Source of the DNA: Candidatus Krumholzibacteriia bacterium
GTDB taxonomy: Bacteria > Krumholzibacteriota > Krumholzibacteriia > LZORAL124-64-63
Length of the DNA: 38,299 nucleotides
Assembly: GCA_024763215.1 (NCBI GenBank)
Contig: JANTFX010000018.1
Coordinates: 1 to 38,299 of the forward strand
Direction: 5' to 3'
Below are positions 33,122 through 38,299 of this stretch, in pieces. The notes under the pieces were generated by a model. That model saw only the letters and a list, made by a program, of their open reading frames with translations, was not told the origin of the DNA and made no database searches. The translations under genes and the position numbers were made by a program. Position 1 is the first letter of the stretch. Each line of letters opens with the position of its first letter.

Positions 33122-35350
33122 CTAGAACCCCACCGTCCGGACCGCAGCCCTGGCCTGGGGCTTGATCATGACCTCGTGCTCCAGGTCCAGTAAAAGCTGC
33201 CGGTGGTTGGCCTTGCCGTTTCGCAAAAACCCGTGGTTGCGGCGCACCAGCACCAGGTCAGCGGTCGTAACCGGGTCCAGGGCGCGCAAACGCCTTGTTT
33301 CACCGTCGGATAGCTTGCCCCGGGCCAGCGGACCCAGGATTCGGTCGTAAACCTCCTCGATCTGGCCGGGGGTCAGGGGTCGGAACGCCACCTTGAGGGC
33401 GAAACGCCGCAACCCAGCCTCATCCAGGCTTTCCAGCCGGTTGGTGGTGCAGATAACCAGACCCTGGTGCTGTTCGATCTGGACCAGCAGCTCGTTGACC
33501 ATGCTGATTTCCCAGCTGCGCCTTCGCCCGCTGCGGGCACCCAGGAAGGTGTCGACCTCATCCAGCACCAGCACCGCACCCTTGTCCTTTGCCTCACTGA
33601 ATGCAGCCGCCAGGTTTTTTTCGGTCATTCCCACGTAGGGATCCAGCAGGTCGCTGGCCCGCTTGCTGATGACCGACCGGCCGATCTTCTCGGCCAGAAA
33701 AGCGGCCGTGGCCGTCTTGCCCGTGCCCGGCAGTCCATGAAACAGCAGGGCCAAGGGACCGGGCGCCATCCGGGGATGTTCACCGGTCCAGATCCCTGCG
33801 TAACGTTCCACGTGCCCCTGGATATCGGTCAGGGTTCGGTCGGGATTCACACCGCAGCTCAGGAAGGGGAGGGACCGCCGCGACTTCCGGCGGCCGGCCA
33901 CCTTGCCCTTGCCCTGCAAAAGGGTCTGCGCGGCCAGAACTTCCCGCACCGCTTCCCTGCAGGCTTTGGGGGAGGATTGCACCCGCGAACCCACCTGCGC
34001 GGCCAGGGCGAACAGGGCCGGGGTGAGCTCGAAGTCCTCGGCCAGCTCACGGATCTGCACGCGGGTGAAATGCCGCTTGATGCCGTGCCTGCGCAGGGCG
34101 GCCTCCAGCATGACCGTCCGCTTATCCACCCCCAGCGGCGGCATCTCCAAACTGTAGGCGAAACGGCGGCGCACCGCCTGGTCGATTTCCTCGTGCCGGT
34201 TGACGATCCATATGCCCTTGACCCCCGGCTGCTCCAGCGCCCCGTTCAGATAGCCCTTGTCCATGGCCTCACCGCTGCGGAACCAGGGAAGGTCGGTGCT
34301 GAGGATCTGGTCGGCCTCGTCCACCACGATCACGCCGTCGGGCCGGCCGGTAACCATTTCCATACACGCAGCCAGGGCCGCGCGGCGGGAACTGGCCCTG
34401 TTCTCCTTCTGCCCCAGCACCTCGACCCCCTTCAGGCCCAGCTCCGAGCACAGGGCCCGCGCCAGGGTGGTCTTGCCCGTGCCCGGAGGACCATAGAACA
34501 GGACATGAACAGGCTTCTCGCCCGGGCTCGACAGCAGGCTGCGCAGGAACGCCAATTTTTCCGGATTCAGCCCGAGCAGGTCCGAGGCAAGCTCGGGCCC
34601 GGGCACCTCGCGGAACAGATCCTGACGGTTGGGGGCCAGGTCCGGATCCAGAAAATACGGCTTGAACTCGTCCTCCACGTCCAGATAGTGCGCGCCCAGA
34701 TCAAGGATCCCGATGGCCCCCACCTTGCCCGCCAGGATCCGGCCGAATTCGGCCTGGTCGAGCCCCACGGCGAGCAGCAGGTGGCGCCGGCCCCGGATAT
34801 CATCGCAGCTCAGGTGGTGTTCGAAATAGTCCTGCGCCGGCCCCCACCACTTCATGACCGACAGGAAAAAACACAACTCCAGGTCCTGGTCCGTCAGACC
34901 GAACAACTGGCGGGTGTCCCGGAGGTGTTTGGCCAGGCCGCAATCCGCATACGTTGCCCGTTCCCGACCCCATTTTTCCAGCAGCTCCGCCATCTCGGCG
35001 GCCATGCGCCTGGTCCGACCTGCGGGCGCCTCCCGGTGGGTGATCCTGACCAGCGAGGCCAGATCATCCGGCTTGTTCATGGCCTTTTTCAGCTCCGGCA
35101 ACAGGCGCTCCCGGTCGGTGGGGCTGAAGAAGACATCCAGGAGCTCCTCCGTCCCGTTCGGGTCCAGTCCCGACAGCCAGAACGCGAAGGTCAACGGTGA
35201 TTCCTCAAGTTCCCCGCGCCCGGCCATGACGTGGGCGCCCCAGCCCGCGCATGCGGTGACGGTATAGAGGGTGTTGGCGTCCTGGGGAGAGAGCTTGTTC
35301 CTTGTGTGGCGGCCGTTCCTGCGCAGGCATTTCGCATGGATCTTGTTCAT
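33122..35350 (-). CDS. ATPase with two AAA domains and a long N-terminal region
   Basis: A 742-aa cytoplasmic protein. Residues 1-260 are a helical region I do not recognise. AAA domain one has Walker A GPPGTGKT (287-294), Walker B VIVVDEAD (about 340-346), sensor N384 and RRRF. AAA domain two has Walker A GLPGTGKT (539-546), Walker B VLVLDEVD (593-600), sensor N637 and RRF (648-650). Both sites look active, suggesting a remodelling or unfolding machine. It is not ClpA/B, VCP or FtsH by its other regions. The ATG at 35350 has GGGG ahead. It is downstream of a WYL regulator and preceded by an operator shared with two neighbours, so it likely acts with them. Confidence 0.9.
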   Translation of the reverse strand: MNKIHAKCLRRNGRHTRNKLSPQDANTLYTVTACAGWGAHVMAGRGELEESPLTFAFWLSGLDPNGTEELLDVFFSPTDRERLLPELKKAMNKPDDLASLVRITHREAPAGRTRRMAAEMAELLEKWGRERATYADCGLAKHLRDTRQLFGLTDQDLELCFFLSVMKWWGPAQDYFEHHLSCDDIRGRRHLLLAVGLDQAEFGRILAGKVGAIGILDLGAHYLDVEDEFKPYFLDPDLAPNRQDLFREVPGPELASDLLGLNPEKLAFLRSLLSSPGEKPVHVLFYGPPGTGKTTLARALCSELGLKGVEVLGQKENRASSRRAALAACMEMVTGRPDGVIVVDEADQILSTDLPWFRSGEAMDKGYLNGALEQPGVKGIWIVNRHEEIDQAVRRRFAYSLEMPPLGVDKRTVMLEAALRRHGIKRHFTRVQIRELAEDFELTPALFALAAQVGSRVQSSPKACREAVREVLAAQTLLQGKGKVAGRRKSRRSLPFLSCGVNPDRTLTDIQGHVERYAGIWTGEHPRMAPGPLALLFHGLPGTGKTATAAFLAEKIGRSVISKRASDLLDPYVGMTEKNLAAAFSEAKDKGAVLVLDEVDTFLGARSGRRRSWEISMVNELLVQIEQHQGLVICTTNRLESLDEAGLRRFALKVAFRPLTPGQIEEVYDRILGPLARGKLSDGETRRLRALDPVTTADLVLVRRNHGFLRNGKANHRQLLLDLEHEVMIKPQARAAVRTVGF

Positions 35351-35397
35351 GATGGTACCCCTTTCCCTATGCAGTGGTTGCATAAGGTAGTCGGGGA

Positions 35398-35430
35398 CCG
35401 TTCCGTGTTCCGGAATGACATGGAAACCGG
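35398..35430 (-). promoter_or_regulatory. Shared operator, site 1 (upstream of AAA ATPase)
   Basis: The core GTTCCGTGTTCCGGAATG (35400-35417) contains a GTTCC-N7-GGAAT inverted repeat. The full 33 bases match site 2 at 27 positions without gaps. It is about 50 bp before the ATPase start. Confidence 0.65.
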
Positions 35431-35433
35431 GGC

Positions 35434-36435
35434 CTACTTTTTCGAATACAGGTCCGCGATCTCGTCCAGCCGGGTCTTCAGCTTCGCGACCAGCTTCTGC
35501 GGCGCCAGCAGCCGGGCCTCGGTGCCGAAGCTCAGCACCCAGGCCAGGACCTCCGGCTCGCTGGTGGCCGAGAAGGCGATTTCAAGGCGGCCGTCGCGCT
35601 TTTTCCTGAGGGTCTGATCGGGGCTGATCTTCCGCTCGGCGGCAAACCCCGCCGCCCAGCCGGAAAGCACCGCCCGCACCTTGAAGGTCCGGCCCTTGAT
35701 GATCCCGAAGTGCTGGTTGAAGATCTTTTCGAAGTCGTAGTTCTGCGGCCGCTTGAAGGGCGTGCCGGTGACCTTGACCGCCGAGAACCGGTGCAGCGCG
35801 AACAGGGGGTCGAAGCCGGGGTTCTTGAACACCTTGCCCGGCATCTTGGCGTAACGCGCGTGGACGTAGATGGTCTCGTGGTGGGAAAAGATCTTCAGCG
35901 GCTTGATGCGGAATACCTTGGCCCGATTGTCCTTGAGGCGCTTGTACGCCACCTCGCACACACGTTGCTCCTCCATGCCCTGCACCAGGGCCTGCAGGTG
36001 GCCGTGGTGGGGGGTGTAGTCGATGACGCCTGGACGGTACACCCCGAACACGCCGCGGTCCGGGTCCCGCGTCCCCTTGTGGATCTTCGCGCTCTTGCTC
36101 ACGGCGTTCATGGCCGCGGCGAATTCCTTGCGGCCGAGCAGGTGGCTGGTGAAGGCCCGGCACATGAGCAGGGCCTCGAATTCCTCGTCGGTCATGGGCA
36201 ACAGGCCCTTGGGGCGCCTGGCCCGGGGAATGCGGTAGAAGTTGCGGTTGCCGTGCTTGTTGACCTCGATGCCCGTGATGCCGGCCTCGCCCAGGTCCGC
36301 CACCAGGCGCAGGATGGTCTGCTTGCTGCAGTCCAGCCGGGAACTCAGCTCGGTCAGGGAATACTCCCGATCGTTGAACATGAGCATGGCGTAGAGCTGG
36401 ATGAGGCGGGAACCGGGGGAGATGTCCTTGGCCAT
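35434..36435 (-). CDS. WYL-domain transcriptional regulator
   Basis: A 333-aa protein with an N-terminal winged helix-turn-helix (about residues 8-65, REYSLTELSSRLDCSKQTILRLVADL), a central linker, and a WYL-type ligand-binding domain (about 140-230, with RIKPLKIFSHHETIYVHARY in place of the canonical WYL strand). A C-terminal WCX-like extension follows (about 240-333). WYL regulators often control stress, DNA-damage or defence genes and may sense nucleotides or nucleic acid. An AAAGGA site precedes the ATG at 36435; the frame is open for 56 codons upstream but without support. Sites like its own upstream site are found before two neighbours, so it is the natural candidate to bind them. Confidence 0.9.
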   Translation of the reverse strand: MAKDISPGSRLIQLYAMLMFNDREYSLTELSSRLDCSKQTILRLVADLGEAGITGIEVNKHGNRNFYRIPRARRPKGLLPMTDEEFEALLMCRAFTSHLLGRKEFAAAMNAVSKSAKIHKGTRDPDRGVFGVYRPGVIDYTPHHGHLQALVQGMEEQRVCEVAYKRLKDNRAKVFRIKPLKIFSHHETIYVHARYAKMPGKVFKNPGFDPLFALHRFSAVKVTGTPFKRPQNYDFEKIFNQHFGIIKGRTFKVRAVLSGWAAGFAAERKISPDQTLRKKRDGRLEIAFSATSEPEVLAWVLSFGTEARLLAPQKLVAKLKTRLDEIADLYSKK

Positions 36436-36504
36436 GGCGAATCCTTTCGCGGCGAGGGTGTGGTGGGGGTGATTGTCCGACCGCCGCAAGGATCCTGCAA
36501 GGGT

Positions 36505-36522
36505 GTTCTGGATTACGGAATG
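36505..36522 (-). promoter_or_regulatory. Shared operator, site 3 (upstream of WYL regulator)
   Basis: GTTCTGGATTACGGAATG fits GTTCY-N7-GGAAY and matches site 1 at 13 of 18 positions; a TGGAGAC follows as TGGAAAC does in site 1. It is 70 bp before the WYL start, suggesting autoregulation. The rest of the 189-bp gap shows nothing clear. Confidence 0.5.
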
Positions 36523-36624
36523 GTTGGAGACAATGCGCCCGGCGGCCCCCTTTGCAGAGGTCCGCCGGACTTCCCGCCGCGGGGGCTCGCCCTTCCCCTG
36601 CAACGGGCTTCTCCCTCGTAGGCG

Positions 36625-36807
36625 CTATTCCAGGGTCAGGTCGATGGTGACGGATTCCAGACCGCAGTTGCGGCCCTCCAGATCGGTGTCGTTTTCCGTG
36701 TTAACGTAACTCACGAACATTCCCGTTTCCTCCTCCAGCTTCTTGAGCATGGCGAAGATCCGCCCGGCAACGTCAACCCGCATGGTTTTGATCTGCTGGA
36801 TGTCCAT
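36625..36807 (-). CDS. 60-aa hypothetical protein under the shared operator
   Basis: A small soluble protein: an amphipathic helix (about residues 3-30, IKTMRVDVAGRIFAMLKKLEEE) followed by a probable beta strand pair ending VTIDLTLE. No cysteine pair or membrane segment. AAAGGGGG lies 5-6 bases before the ATG, and the operator site 2 is 58 bp upstream, which supports it as a real gene. A longer open frame runs through the phosphoesterase gene but is a shadow. Family not recognised; it may be a partner of the AAA ATPase. Confidence 0.7.
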   Translation of the reverse strand: MDIQQIKTMRVDVAGRIFAMLKKLEEETGMFVSYVNTENDTDLEGRNCGLESVTIDLTLE

Positions 36808-36862
36808 GATGACCCCCTTTCCTTGTGAATGGTTTGTCGGTGACAAGGACATTACCGGCAGA

Positions 36863-36895
36863 CTGTTCCATATTCCGGAACGAAATGGAAATCGG
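36863..36895 (-). promoter_or_regulatory. Shared operator, site 2 (upstream of 60-aa gene)
   Basis: The core GTTCCATATTCCGGAACG (36865-36882) contains a perfect GTTCC-N7-GGAAC inverted repeat. It is 10 bases after the stop of the phosphoesterase gene and is 27/33 identical to site 1. Confidence 0.65.
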
Positions 36896-36905
36896 ATGGA
36901 TGTTT

Positions 36906-37874
36906 TCAGCGCGAGGCCGTGAAGCTTGCGGCGGTGATCGGTTCGCCGCGCCGCCAGGTGCAGGCGACCAGCTTGCCGACCCTGGCCACGGAGTAGTCCA
37001 GGCAGACGGCGTTGGGGGTCTGGACCGCCACTTCGCCCGTCAACCAGTAGTGGCCGAAAAAAACAGGGGGAGCGGCCGCGGGGTAGGCGTTTCCCGGTAA
37101 GCGCAACGCGCACAGCGCCTCGTCCGGCACCGGCACCGTTGGCAGGTCGGTGGTTGAACTGGCCGGAAAGACCATTTCGGGATAGGTCGGCCGGGGTGGC
37201 AGGCCGAACCAGCGCACGCGTATCTTGCTGCGCCGGATGCCTTCCTTGTCCGCGACGGGCGCGTAACCGTTGGGCAGGGGGATCTCCTTGCCCTTGAGCA
37301 GCCACTCCACGGCCATGTACAGAGCGCTGTTCTGATCCAAAGGCAACGCTTCCGTCATGAACGCGTCCGTCATCCCACCGTGGCGGCTCAGGGCTTCATC
37401 CATGACCTCGACCGCCCAGGGATCCCAGCACGCGTGCACCACCCGCAACTCGTCGTTGGCCAGATAGGGAGGCAGGGTGCGGAACCAGTCCAGCCAGGAA
37501 TCCTGGACCGCCAGCCCGCCCAGCTGTTCCAGGGTGTGCCGGTGCTGGCGCTCGTGGCCCGGCGTGTGTTCGCGCAGGTAACGACCATCATGCCGGGTTG
37601 CATAGGCGATGGCGTTGAACTCGTGGTTGCCCAGAACTGCGTAAGCCGTTCCGGCCTCAATCATGTCGCGCACAATCTTCAGCACGCGCAGGATGTCCGG
37701 CCCGCGGTCGATGAAATCGCCCAAAAAGACCACGCGGCGTTCACCGTCCGGGTGGCGATACGCCCCGTCCCGGTCGCGGTAGCCGAGGCGGCCCAGCAAG
37801 ACCTCGAGATCTTCCGCGTAACCGTGAATATCCCCTATGATGTCAAAACATGCATGAGGCGGTAGACCAGCCAT
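36906..37874 (-). CDS. Calcineurin-like metallophosphoesterase
   Basis: A 322-aa protein of the protein phosphatase/ApaH/PrpE-like group. Metal-binding motifs are GDIHG (14-18), GDFIDRG (52-58) and GNHE (82-85), with later histidines in VVHACWD and FFGHYW. Possible substrates are dinucleoside polyphosphates, phosphoproteins or RNA ends; the sequence does not decide. The ATG at 37874 has AAAGGAT ahead. It is upstream of the 60-aa gene on the same strand, with 98 bases and an operator between, so co-regulation with the WYL group is likely only partial. A TATACT -10-like box lies near 37957 on the minus strand. Confidence 0.9.
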   Translation of the reverse strand: MAGLPPHACFDIIGDIHGYAEDLEVLLGRLGYRDRDGAYRHPDGERRVVFLGDFIDRGPDILRVLKIVRDMIEAGTAYAVLGNHEFNAIAYATRHDGRYLREHTPGHERQHRHTLEQLGGLAVQDSWLDWFRTLPPYLANDELRVVHACWDPWAVEVMDEALSRHGGMTDAFMTEALPLDQNSALYMAVEWLLKGKEIPLPNGYAPVADKEGIRRSKIRVRWFGLPPRPTYPEMVFPASSTTDLPTVPVPDEALCALRLPGNAYPAAAPPVFFGHYWLTGEVAVQTPNAVCLDYSVARVGKLVACTWRRGEPITAASFTASR

Positions 37875-38019
37875 GGTGATGATCCTTTCGGGATAATATT
37901 CCCTTTGCCAACACAGAATTATCTTTTCGTGCTGACACGACATGGGGAATGTGTTAGTATACCCGCACTTGAGATATATATCCTATCGAAACCCGGCTCG
38001 CCCAGCTTGGATAAGAATC
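37875..38019. promoter_or_regulatory. Divergent region, phosphoesterase / DUF2779 gene
   Basis: This is a 145-bp AT-rich gap with TATATATAT (about 37974-37982) and a minus-strand TATACT. Promoters for both genes probably lie here, but no spaced -35/-10 pair is convincing, and none of the GTTCY-N7-GGAAY sites is found. Confidence 0.35.
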
Positions 38020-38299
38020 ATGGCGGTTTTGGTCTCCAAGTCCAAATTCCTGTCCGGTTTGCAATGCCCGCGGCTACTGTGGACCCACTACAACAAACGT
38101 GACCTGATCCCCCTGCCCGGGCCCGCCCAGCAGTTCATCTTCGACACCGGCCACCTGGTCGGCGATCTGGCCAAACAGCTGTACCCTGACGGAATCGAGA
38201 TCAAATGCGACCGGCCCGACGGCAGGCCCGACATACCCGCCACCGTGGCCGAAACCGCCCGTCTGTTGCCTCGGCGCAAGCCCCTGTTCGAGGCCAGTT
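38020..38299 (+). CDS. DUF2779 protein, 5' part, cut by window edge
   Basis: The first 93 codons of a frame open to the window end. The N-terminus has the DUF2779 pattern: SKSKFLSGLQCPRLLW, then GHLVGDLAKQLYPDGIEI, then ETARLLPRRKPLFEA. DUF2779 proteins are related to PD-(D/E)XK/Cas4-like nucleases and usually carry a C-terminal Cys cluster, which would be outside this window. The ATG has only a weak purine-rich site upstream. Confidence 0.8.
   Translation, partial: MAVLVSKSKFLSGLQCPRLLWTHYNKRDLIPLPGPAQQFIFDTGHLVGDLAKQLYPDGIEIKCDRPDGRPDIPATVAETARLLPRRKPLFEAS

Follow-up and report, generated by a model that had tools for sequence, protein, structure and literature searches.

Few WYL-domain regulators have a known operator and regulon. 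At promoters controlled by DriD, an N7 inverted repeat overlaps a poor -35 element at a fixed distance from the -10 box, and binding of ssDNA in the WYL domain leads to activation (PMC12340889). PafBC is a WYL activator whose promoters likewise lack a usable -35 (PMC11804915), and CapW is a repressor that sits on the -10 box (PMC9122588). Here we analysed a 38,299-nucleotide stretch of DNA from a Candidatus Krumholzibacteriia bacterium (contig JANTFX010000018.1; the window), for which a preliminary description had proposed an autoregulated regulon of a WYL protein, an AAA ATPase and a small protein. This regulon is real, since both the operator and the pairing of WYL with AAA genes are found again in other phyla, and it is apparently undescribed; no description of the WYL/AAA pair or of its operator was found in the open-licence papers searched. 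The features of the locus are given below, with the letters of the 19-bp operators on the coding (minus) strand.

33122 to 35350, minus strand: tandem AAA+ ATPase of 742 aa, Cdc48/Rix7-like, with a helical N-domain and two AAA modules
35384 to 35389, minus strand: -10-like box TACCTT of the AAA promoter, 9 bp downstream of operator A, a spacing that is the same in relatives
35399 to 35417, minus strand: operator A at the AAA promoter, CATTCCGGAACACGGAACG, at about -40 to -22, where a -35 box would be
35434 to 36435, minus strand: WYL-domain regulator of 333 aa (HTH_11, WYL and WCX domains by Pfam)
36472 to 36477, minus strand: -10-like box GACAAT of the WYL promoter, separated from TTGCAG by a 17-bp spacer
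36495 to 36500, minus strand: -35-like box TTGCAG in the separate promoter of the WYL gene, 3 bp after operator B
36504 to 36522, minus strand: operator B at the WYL gene promoter, CATTCCGTAATCCAGAACA
36625 to 36807, minus strand: 60-aa protein with no family assigned, found only in this species and in the same-genus genome G003
36849 to 36854, minus strand: -10-like box TAATGT of the 60-aa promoter, 9 bp downstream of operator C
36864 to 36882, minus strand: operator C at the promoter of the 60-aa gene, CGTTCCGGAATATGGAACA
36906 to 37877, minus strand: calcineurin-like phosphoesterase (Pnkp/PrpE-like), a neighbour without an operator of its own
38020 to 38299, plus strand: start of a DUF2779 (RecB-like) gene, cut by the contig end, a neighbour with no operator in the window

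The sites at 35398-35430 and 36863-36895 are identical at 27 of 33 bases, as had been claimed, whereas the maximum reached when the two intergenic stretches were shuffled 500 times was 21 matches. The third proposed site, at 36505-36521, does fit GTTCY-N7-GGAAY, a pattern found at three places in the window against 0.5 expected. All three lie at the 50-70 bp originally stated before the start codons of the AAA (35350), 60-aa (36807) and WYL (36435) genes. Judged from the sequences, the conserved unit is a 19-bp inverted repeat, CGTTCC-N7-GGAACG, which operator B, with 9/12 arm bases, matches least well among the three copies. A genome-wide scan, suggested earlier as a check on the regulon, found that the motif is not scattered at unrelated sites: all three exact matches to the 17-bp consensus in the 3.23-Mb genome fall at this locus, and allowing one mismatch adds three further matches, compared with one for the reversed control.

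A TTTCCAT arm is also common to the AAA and 60-aa sites and lies outside the operator conserved in relatives. The extended form of this arm, TTTCCATnTC, stands at 35418-35430 and 36883-36895, about one helical turn upstream of operators A and C, and may represent either a third half-site or what is left of a promoter duplication. Could the likeness of sites A and C reflect nothing more than a recent promoter duplication without function? The likeness does run on into the leader (CCCCTTTCC repeat; alignment). Site B, however, is separate, and relatives keep the operator amid diverged surroundings, including G003, where it precedes the AAA, WYL and 60-aa genes alike. A functionless duplication is contradicted by this conservation of the operator in distant relatives, and we give it almost no weight.

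We evaluated conservation of the operator among WYL orthologs, which are encoded in 20 of 58 relatives' genomes. In named genomes these orthologs account for 74 loci, mostly in Krumholzibacteriota and Thermodesulfobacteriota, with others in single Acidobacteriota, Omnitrophota and Hydrogenedentes genomes. Scoring up to 250 bp before the WYL gene, with at least 10 of 12 arm bases matching, we found the inverted repeat at 55/67 loci, compared with 2% of 1159 control windows; among the closer orthologs it was present at 51 of 55. Read toward WYL, the consensus is CGTTCC-ATATTRC-GGAACG, and on a Desulfosarcina plasmid, where the WYL and AAA genes diverge, CGTTCCGCTATATGGAATG stands between them. 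No operator was seen at the WYL gene of a Thiodictyon plasmid, which is too diverged. Gene calls lying opposite true genes (e.g. x846 at L158) were left out as simple gene-finder artefacts.

As a genome-wide probe, plain CGTTCC-N7-GGAACG was rejected as too noisy, with many matches inside genes, and was cleaned by adding the -10 at its fixed spacing. The resulting composite pattern, GTTCC-N7-GGAAYG-N9-TAnnnT (operator, 9 bp, -10), was searched in 58 genomes and gave 18 sites in 11 of them, with a single match for the reversed control. It occurs in 11 of the 20 genomes that encode the WYL protein and in none of the 38 that do not (Fisher 7e-7), and is specific enough for listing regulon members in other genomes.

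These data bear on whether the sites might instead belong to another regulator or to an alternative sigma factor, with the WYL gene a bystander. GGAAC resembles an ECF -35 element, and binding by the WYL protein is here a prediction. Against this, the composite pattern is confined to WYL-encoding genomes, and in several phyla the operator goes with WYL orthologs; a 19-bp site with two-fold symmetry also fits a dimer with conserved HTH residues, which in the WYL protein are CSKQ, better than it fits a sigma factor. We consider the bystander explanation very improbable. On present sequence evidence, the WYL protein very probably binds all three operators.

The WYL protein has the domain order HTH-WYL-WCX (HTH_11 10-57, WYL 146-194, WCX 251-327; Pfam). 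Searching the PDB with the single sequence gave no match and an alignment was needed, with which DriD was the closest solved relative (E 1.5e-9 over WYL-WCX). Consistent with an operator placed as in DriD promoters, the operator sits between the two genes at 19/19 divergent WYL/AAA loci, and TAnnnT follows it by exactly 9 bp at 13/19 on the AAA side compared with 1/19 on the WYL side. The mean -10 match on the AAA side of these loci was 4.4/6, against 1.6 at random, while the mean best -35 match was 2.5, against 2.4 at random, and so carried no -35 signal; an extended -10 TG was present in 11 of the 19. Given the fixed 9-bp spacing to the -10 box and the missing -35 signal, the operator covers about -40 to -22. 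In the window, this layout of operator, 9 bp and -10 box is shared by the AAA and 60-aa promoters, whose -10 boxes are mediocre (3/6 matches).

An operator in the -35 position, 9 bp before the -10, suggests that the WYL protein would most likely recruit RNA polymerase in a DriD-like manner. Activation of the AAA and 60-aa genes is the better reading than repression since the geometry matches that of DriD, and from the promoter sequences it is fairly likely that the WYL protein activates both. The same regulon could nevertheless have the opposite sign, the WYL protein repressing from the core promoter until a ligand frees it, which is how CapW and BrxR act on defence operons. Where the extended -10 is good, as are the strong boxes in several relatives, a promoter might need no -35, so that an overlapping protein could equally repress. 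CapW itself is a palindrome-binding homodimeric WYL repressor that acts on both directions of a shared promoter (PMC9122588), and negative regulation has been proposed for the WYL proteins of predicted ADP-ribose systems (PMC9503650). The palindromes bound by CapW do overlap the -10, however, whereas here the -10 lies outside the operator at a fixed 9 bp and the -35 signal is absent, as at DriD promoters. Such strict spacing would be expected of an activator that touches the polymerase, and less of a blocker. We therefore regard repression as rather unlikely and retain activation as the preferred reading.

The mediocre -10 boxes of the window speak against the regulatory model as a whole, as do the weakness of operator B and a WYL promoter unlike the other two. 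In the case of the WYL gene, a TTGCRG box lies a few bp downstream of the operator, which places the operator near -48, and TTGCRG-N17-GACAAT is kept in three species of the genus. With this separate promoter just downstream of the operator, the WYL gene is probably autoregulated.

The ATPase is nearest to Cdc48/VCP and Rix7 both by profile and by fold, and in each of its two AAA modules the Walker A, Walker B and arginine-finger residues are conserved in 20 aligned sequences. Superposition of the full-length fold was poor (TM about 0.25, pTM 0.58) and the module assignment alone was used. True orthologs of the ATPase occur in seven genomes, all of which encode the WYL protein, adjacent in six. 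The two genes thus adjoin in relatives, and the outcome that would have spoken against the proposed regulon, genes that are never neighbours, was absent. We also considered IetA of the anti-phage system IetAS and rejected it, the score being 104.7 bits against a cut-off of 510 and the best match falling on the second AAA module, a domain-level resemblance only. No IetS subtilase was found among the neighbouring window genes by Pfam or PADLOC.

That four genes travel together, a point put up for checking in the preliminary description, was not supported by comparison with relatives. The 60-aa gene is restricted to the genus, being present in 2 of 80 genomes of the class, and its product had no match in Pfam, NCBIfam, PADLOC or phage searches. 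In the same-genus genome G002 the phosphoesterase stands alone, next to the ATP synthase operon and without an operator, and WYL, AAA and DUF2779 genes are absent. This gene content indicates that WYL, AAA and 60-aa genes form a unit of gain and loss of which the phosphoesterase is no obligate part. In another genome of the genus, G001, the operator precedes the AAA and WYL genes, and an orphan copy marks the place of the missing 60-aa gene. In G003, a VapBC-like pair, consisting of a small gene and a gene for a PIN-domain toxin, is inserted on the opposite strand between the WYL and 60-aa genes (L031 3430-3974). Contig C107 of the window's own genome begins with another, almost complete DUF2779 gene (G000:C107:6-1484), which is either a second copy or the product of an assembly split.

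Operators were also found at other genes in relatives. In G001 one precedes a distant 131-aa gene with a TY-Chap1 match below its cut-off. In genus g10 the operator precedes a microbial PARG with the same -10 spacing, and a radical-SAM gene with less regular -10 boxes; operator-like sites before PARG and radical-SAM maturase-like genes are present in several copies per genome in this genus (L112, L116, L122, L109, L114, L120, L121). Three Syntrophaceae-type loci have the operator before a ClpP gene, followed by the AAA gene. At these loci (L166 9173-12089, L167 9327-12259, L205 1985-4896) the ClpP-family peptidase and the AAA ATPase are directly divergent, and we regard them as a candidate unfoldase-protease pair. 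DUF2779 nuclease genes lie near 16/67 loci, and an ADP-ribosylglycohydrolase is found at the locus of one relative only, G020. The links to ClpP, PARG, ADP-ribosylglycohydrolase and TY-Chap-like genes hint at a response to protein damage or ADP-ribose, in which damaged or modified proteins would be handled; this agrees with what has been predicted for ADP-ribose systems (PMC9503650).

The module might accordingly be read as a system for phage defence or against ADP-ribosylation, of the type centred on an ADP-ribosylglycohydrolase (ARG), in which the WYL protein would be the sensor and the effectors would be the ATPase and nuclease; either regulatory sign is compatible with this. Besides the ADP-ribose and nuclease genes added in relatives and the TY-Chap1-like target, the Desulfosarcina copy lies on a plasmid beside ZacB/DrmD-like genes, and systems with WYL regulators and phosphatases have been predicted (PMC9503650). 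Yet an ADP-ribosylglycohydrolase (PF03747) is absent from the window and from the whole genome, the phosphoesterase has no operator, the TY-Chap1 match is sub-threshold, and PADLOC gave only generic AAA and WYL matches for the window genes. Such a role is possible but doubtful. The plasmid neighbourhood lends some substance to the defence function raised in the preliminary description, while the lack of any known system beyond generic domains leaves it suggestive only.

On the Desulfosarcina sp. BuS5 plasmid (L149 10809-20304), and likewise at L190, the operator-bearing WYL/AAA genes are followed by genes for a 395-aa protein, a 651-aa ZacB-like protein and a DrmD/helicase-like protein, which are possibly a defence cassette. 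Similar gene orders occur on plasmids of Pantoea and Rhodoferax, where they include PLD-like or SNF2/DEAD helicase genes.

These data allow us to propose a model in which a homodimeric WYL protein recognises CGTTCC-N7-GGAACG and would control the AAA and 60-aa promoters as well as its own. Judging by its family, the WYL domain probably holds a nucleic acid or nucleotide as the inducing ligand. By analogy, proteins that are damaged or modified are the probable substrates that the ATPase, once induced, would remodel or unfold. We consider this WYL-controlled regulon of three promoters, activating at the AAA and 60-aa genes, likely as a whole. More tentatively, a DriD-type WYL activator in several phyla may sense nucleic-acid or ADP-ribose damage and induce a Cdc48-like unfoldase, joined in some lineages by ClpP, PARG or a DUF2779 nuclease, as an undescribed protein-remodelling stress or anti-phage response. 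What makes the locus useful is that the operator, its position relative to the -10 and its main target can be read from sequence across phyla, which yields the prediction of activation by an operator that replaces the -35. It also opens a way into a family of tandem AAA ATPases, as yet uncharacterised, that travels with a WYL regulator.

Among known systems, the locus resembles DriD, the activator of the SOS-independent DNA damage response of Caulobacter, which has the same HTH-WYL-WCX architecture, an N7 inverted repeat that overlaps a poor -35 and keeps a fixed distance to the -10, and a further site at its own gene. The DriD operator is ATACGAC-N7-GTCGTAT rather than CGTTCC-N7-GGAACG, and its targets are didA, bapE, recJ and dnaG rather than an AAA ATPase and a 60-aa protein. 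The mycobacterial DNA damage activator PafBC resembles the predicted role in using the housekeeping sigma factor at promoters lacking a usable -35, but is a heterodimer with a -26 motif, in contrast to a single protein with a symmetric 19-bp site. Common to CapW and BrxR are a homodimeric WYL protein and, between divergent genes, a palindrome about 20 bp long; the CapW sites overlap the -10 and repress, whereas ours lies upstream of it. The two AAA modules with intact catalytic residues are common to Cdc48/p97, Rix7 and VCP-like proteins, from which the window ATPase differs in being bacterial, in its different, all-helical N-terminal domain, and in having relatives that sometimes neighbour ClpP or DUF2779 genes. 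ARG-centred systems (PMC9503650) combine a WYL regulator, a calcineurin-like phosphatase and nuclease-fold neighbours, as do some relatives, with G020 having the ADP-ribosylglycohydrolase too. The window has a tandem AAA ATPase at its core instead of that enzyme, and where ARG-centred systems couple phosphatase to regulator, its phosphoesterase is adjacent without an operator and occurs without WYL in G002.
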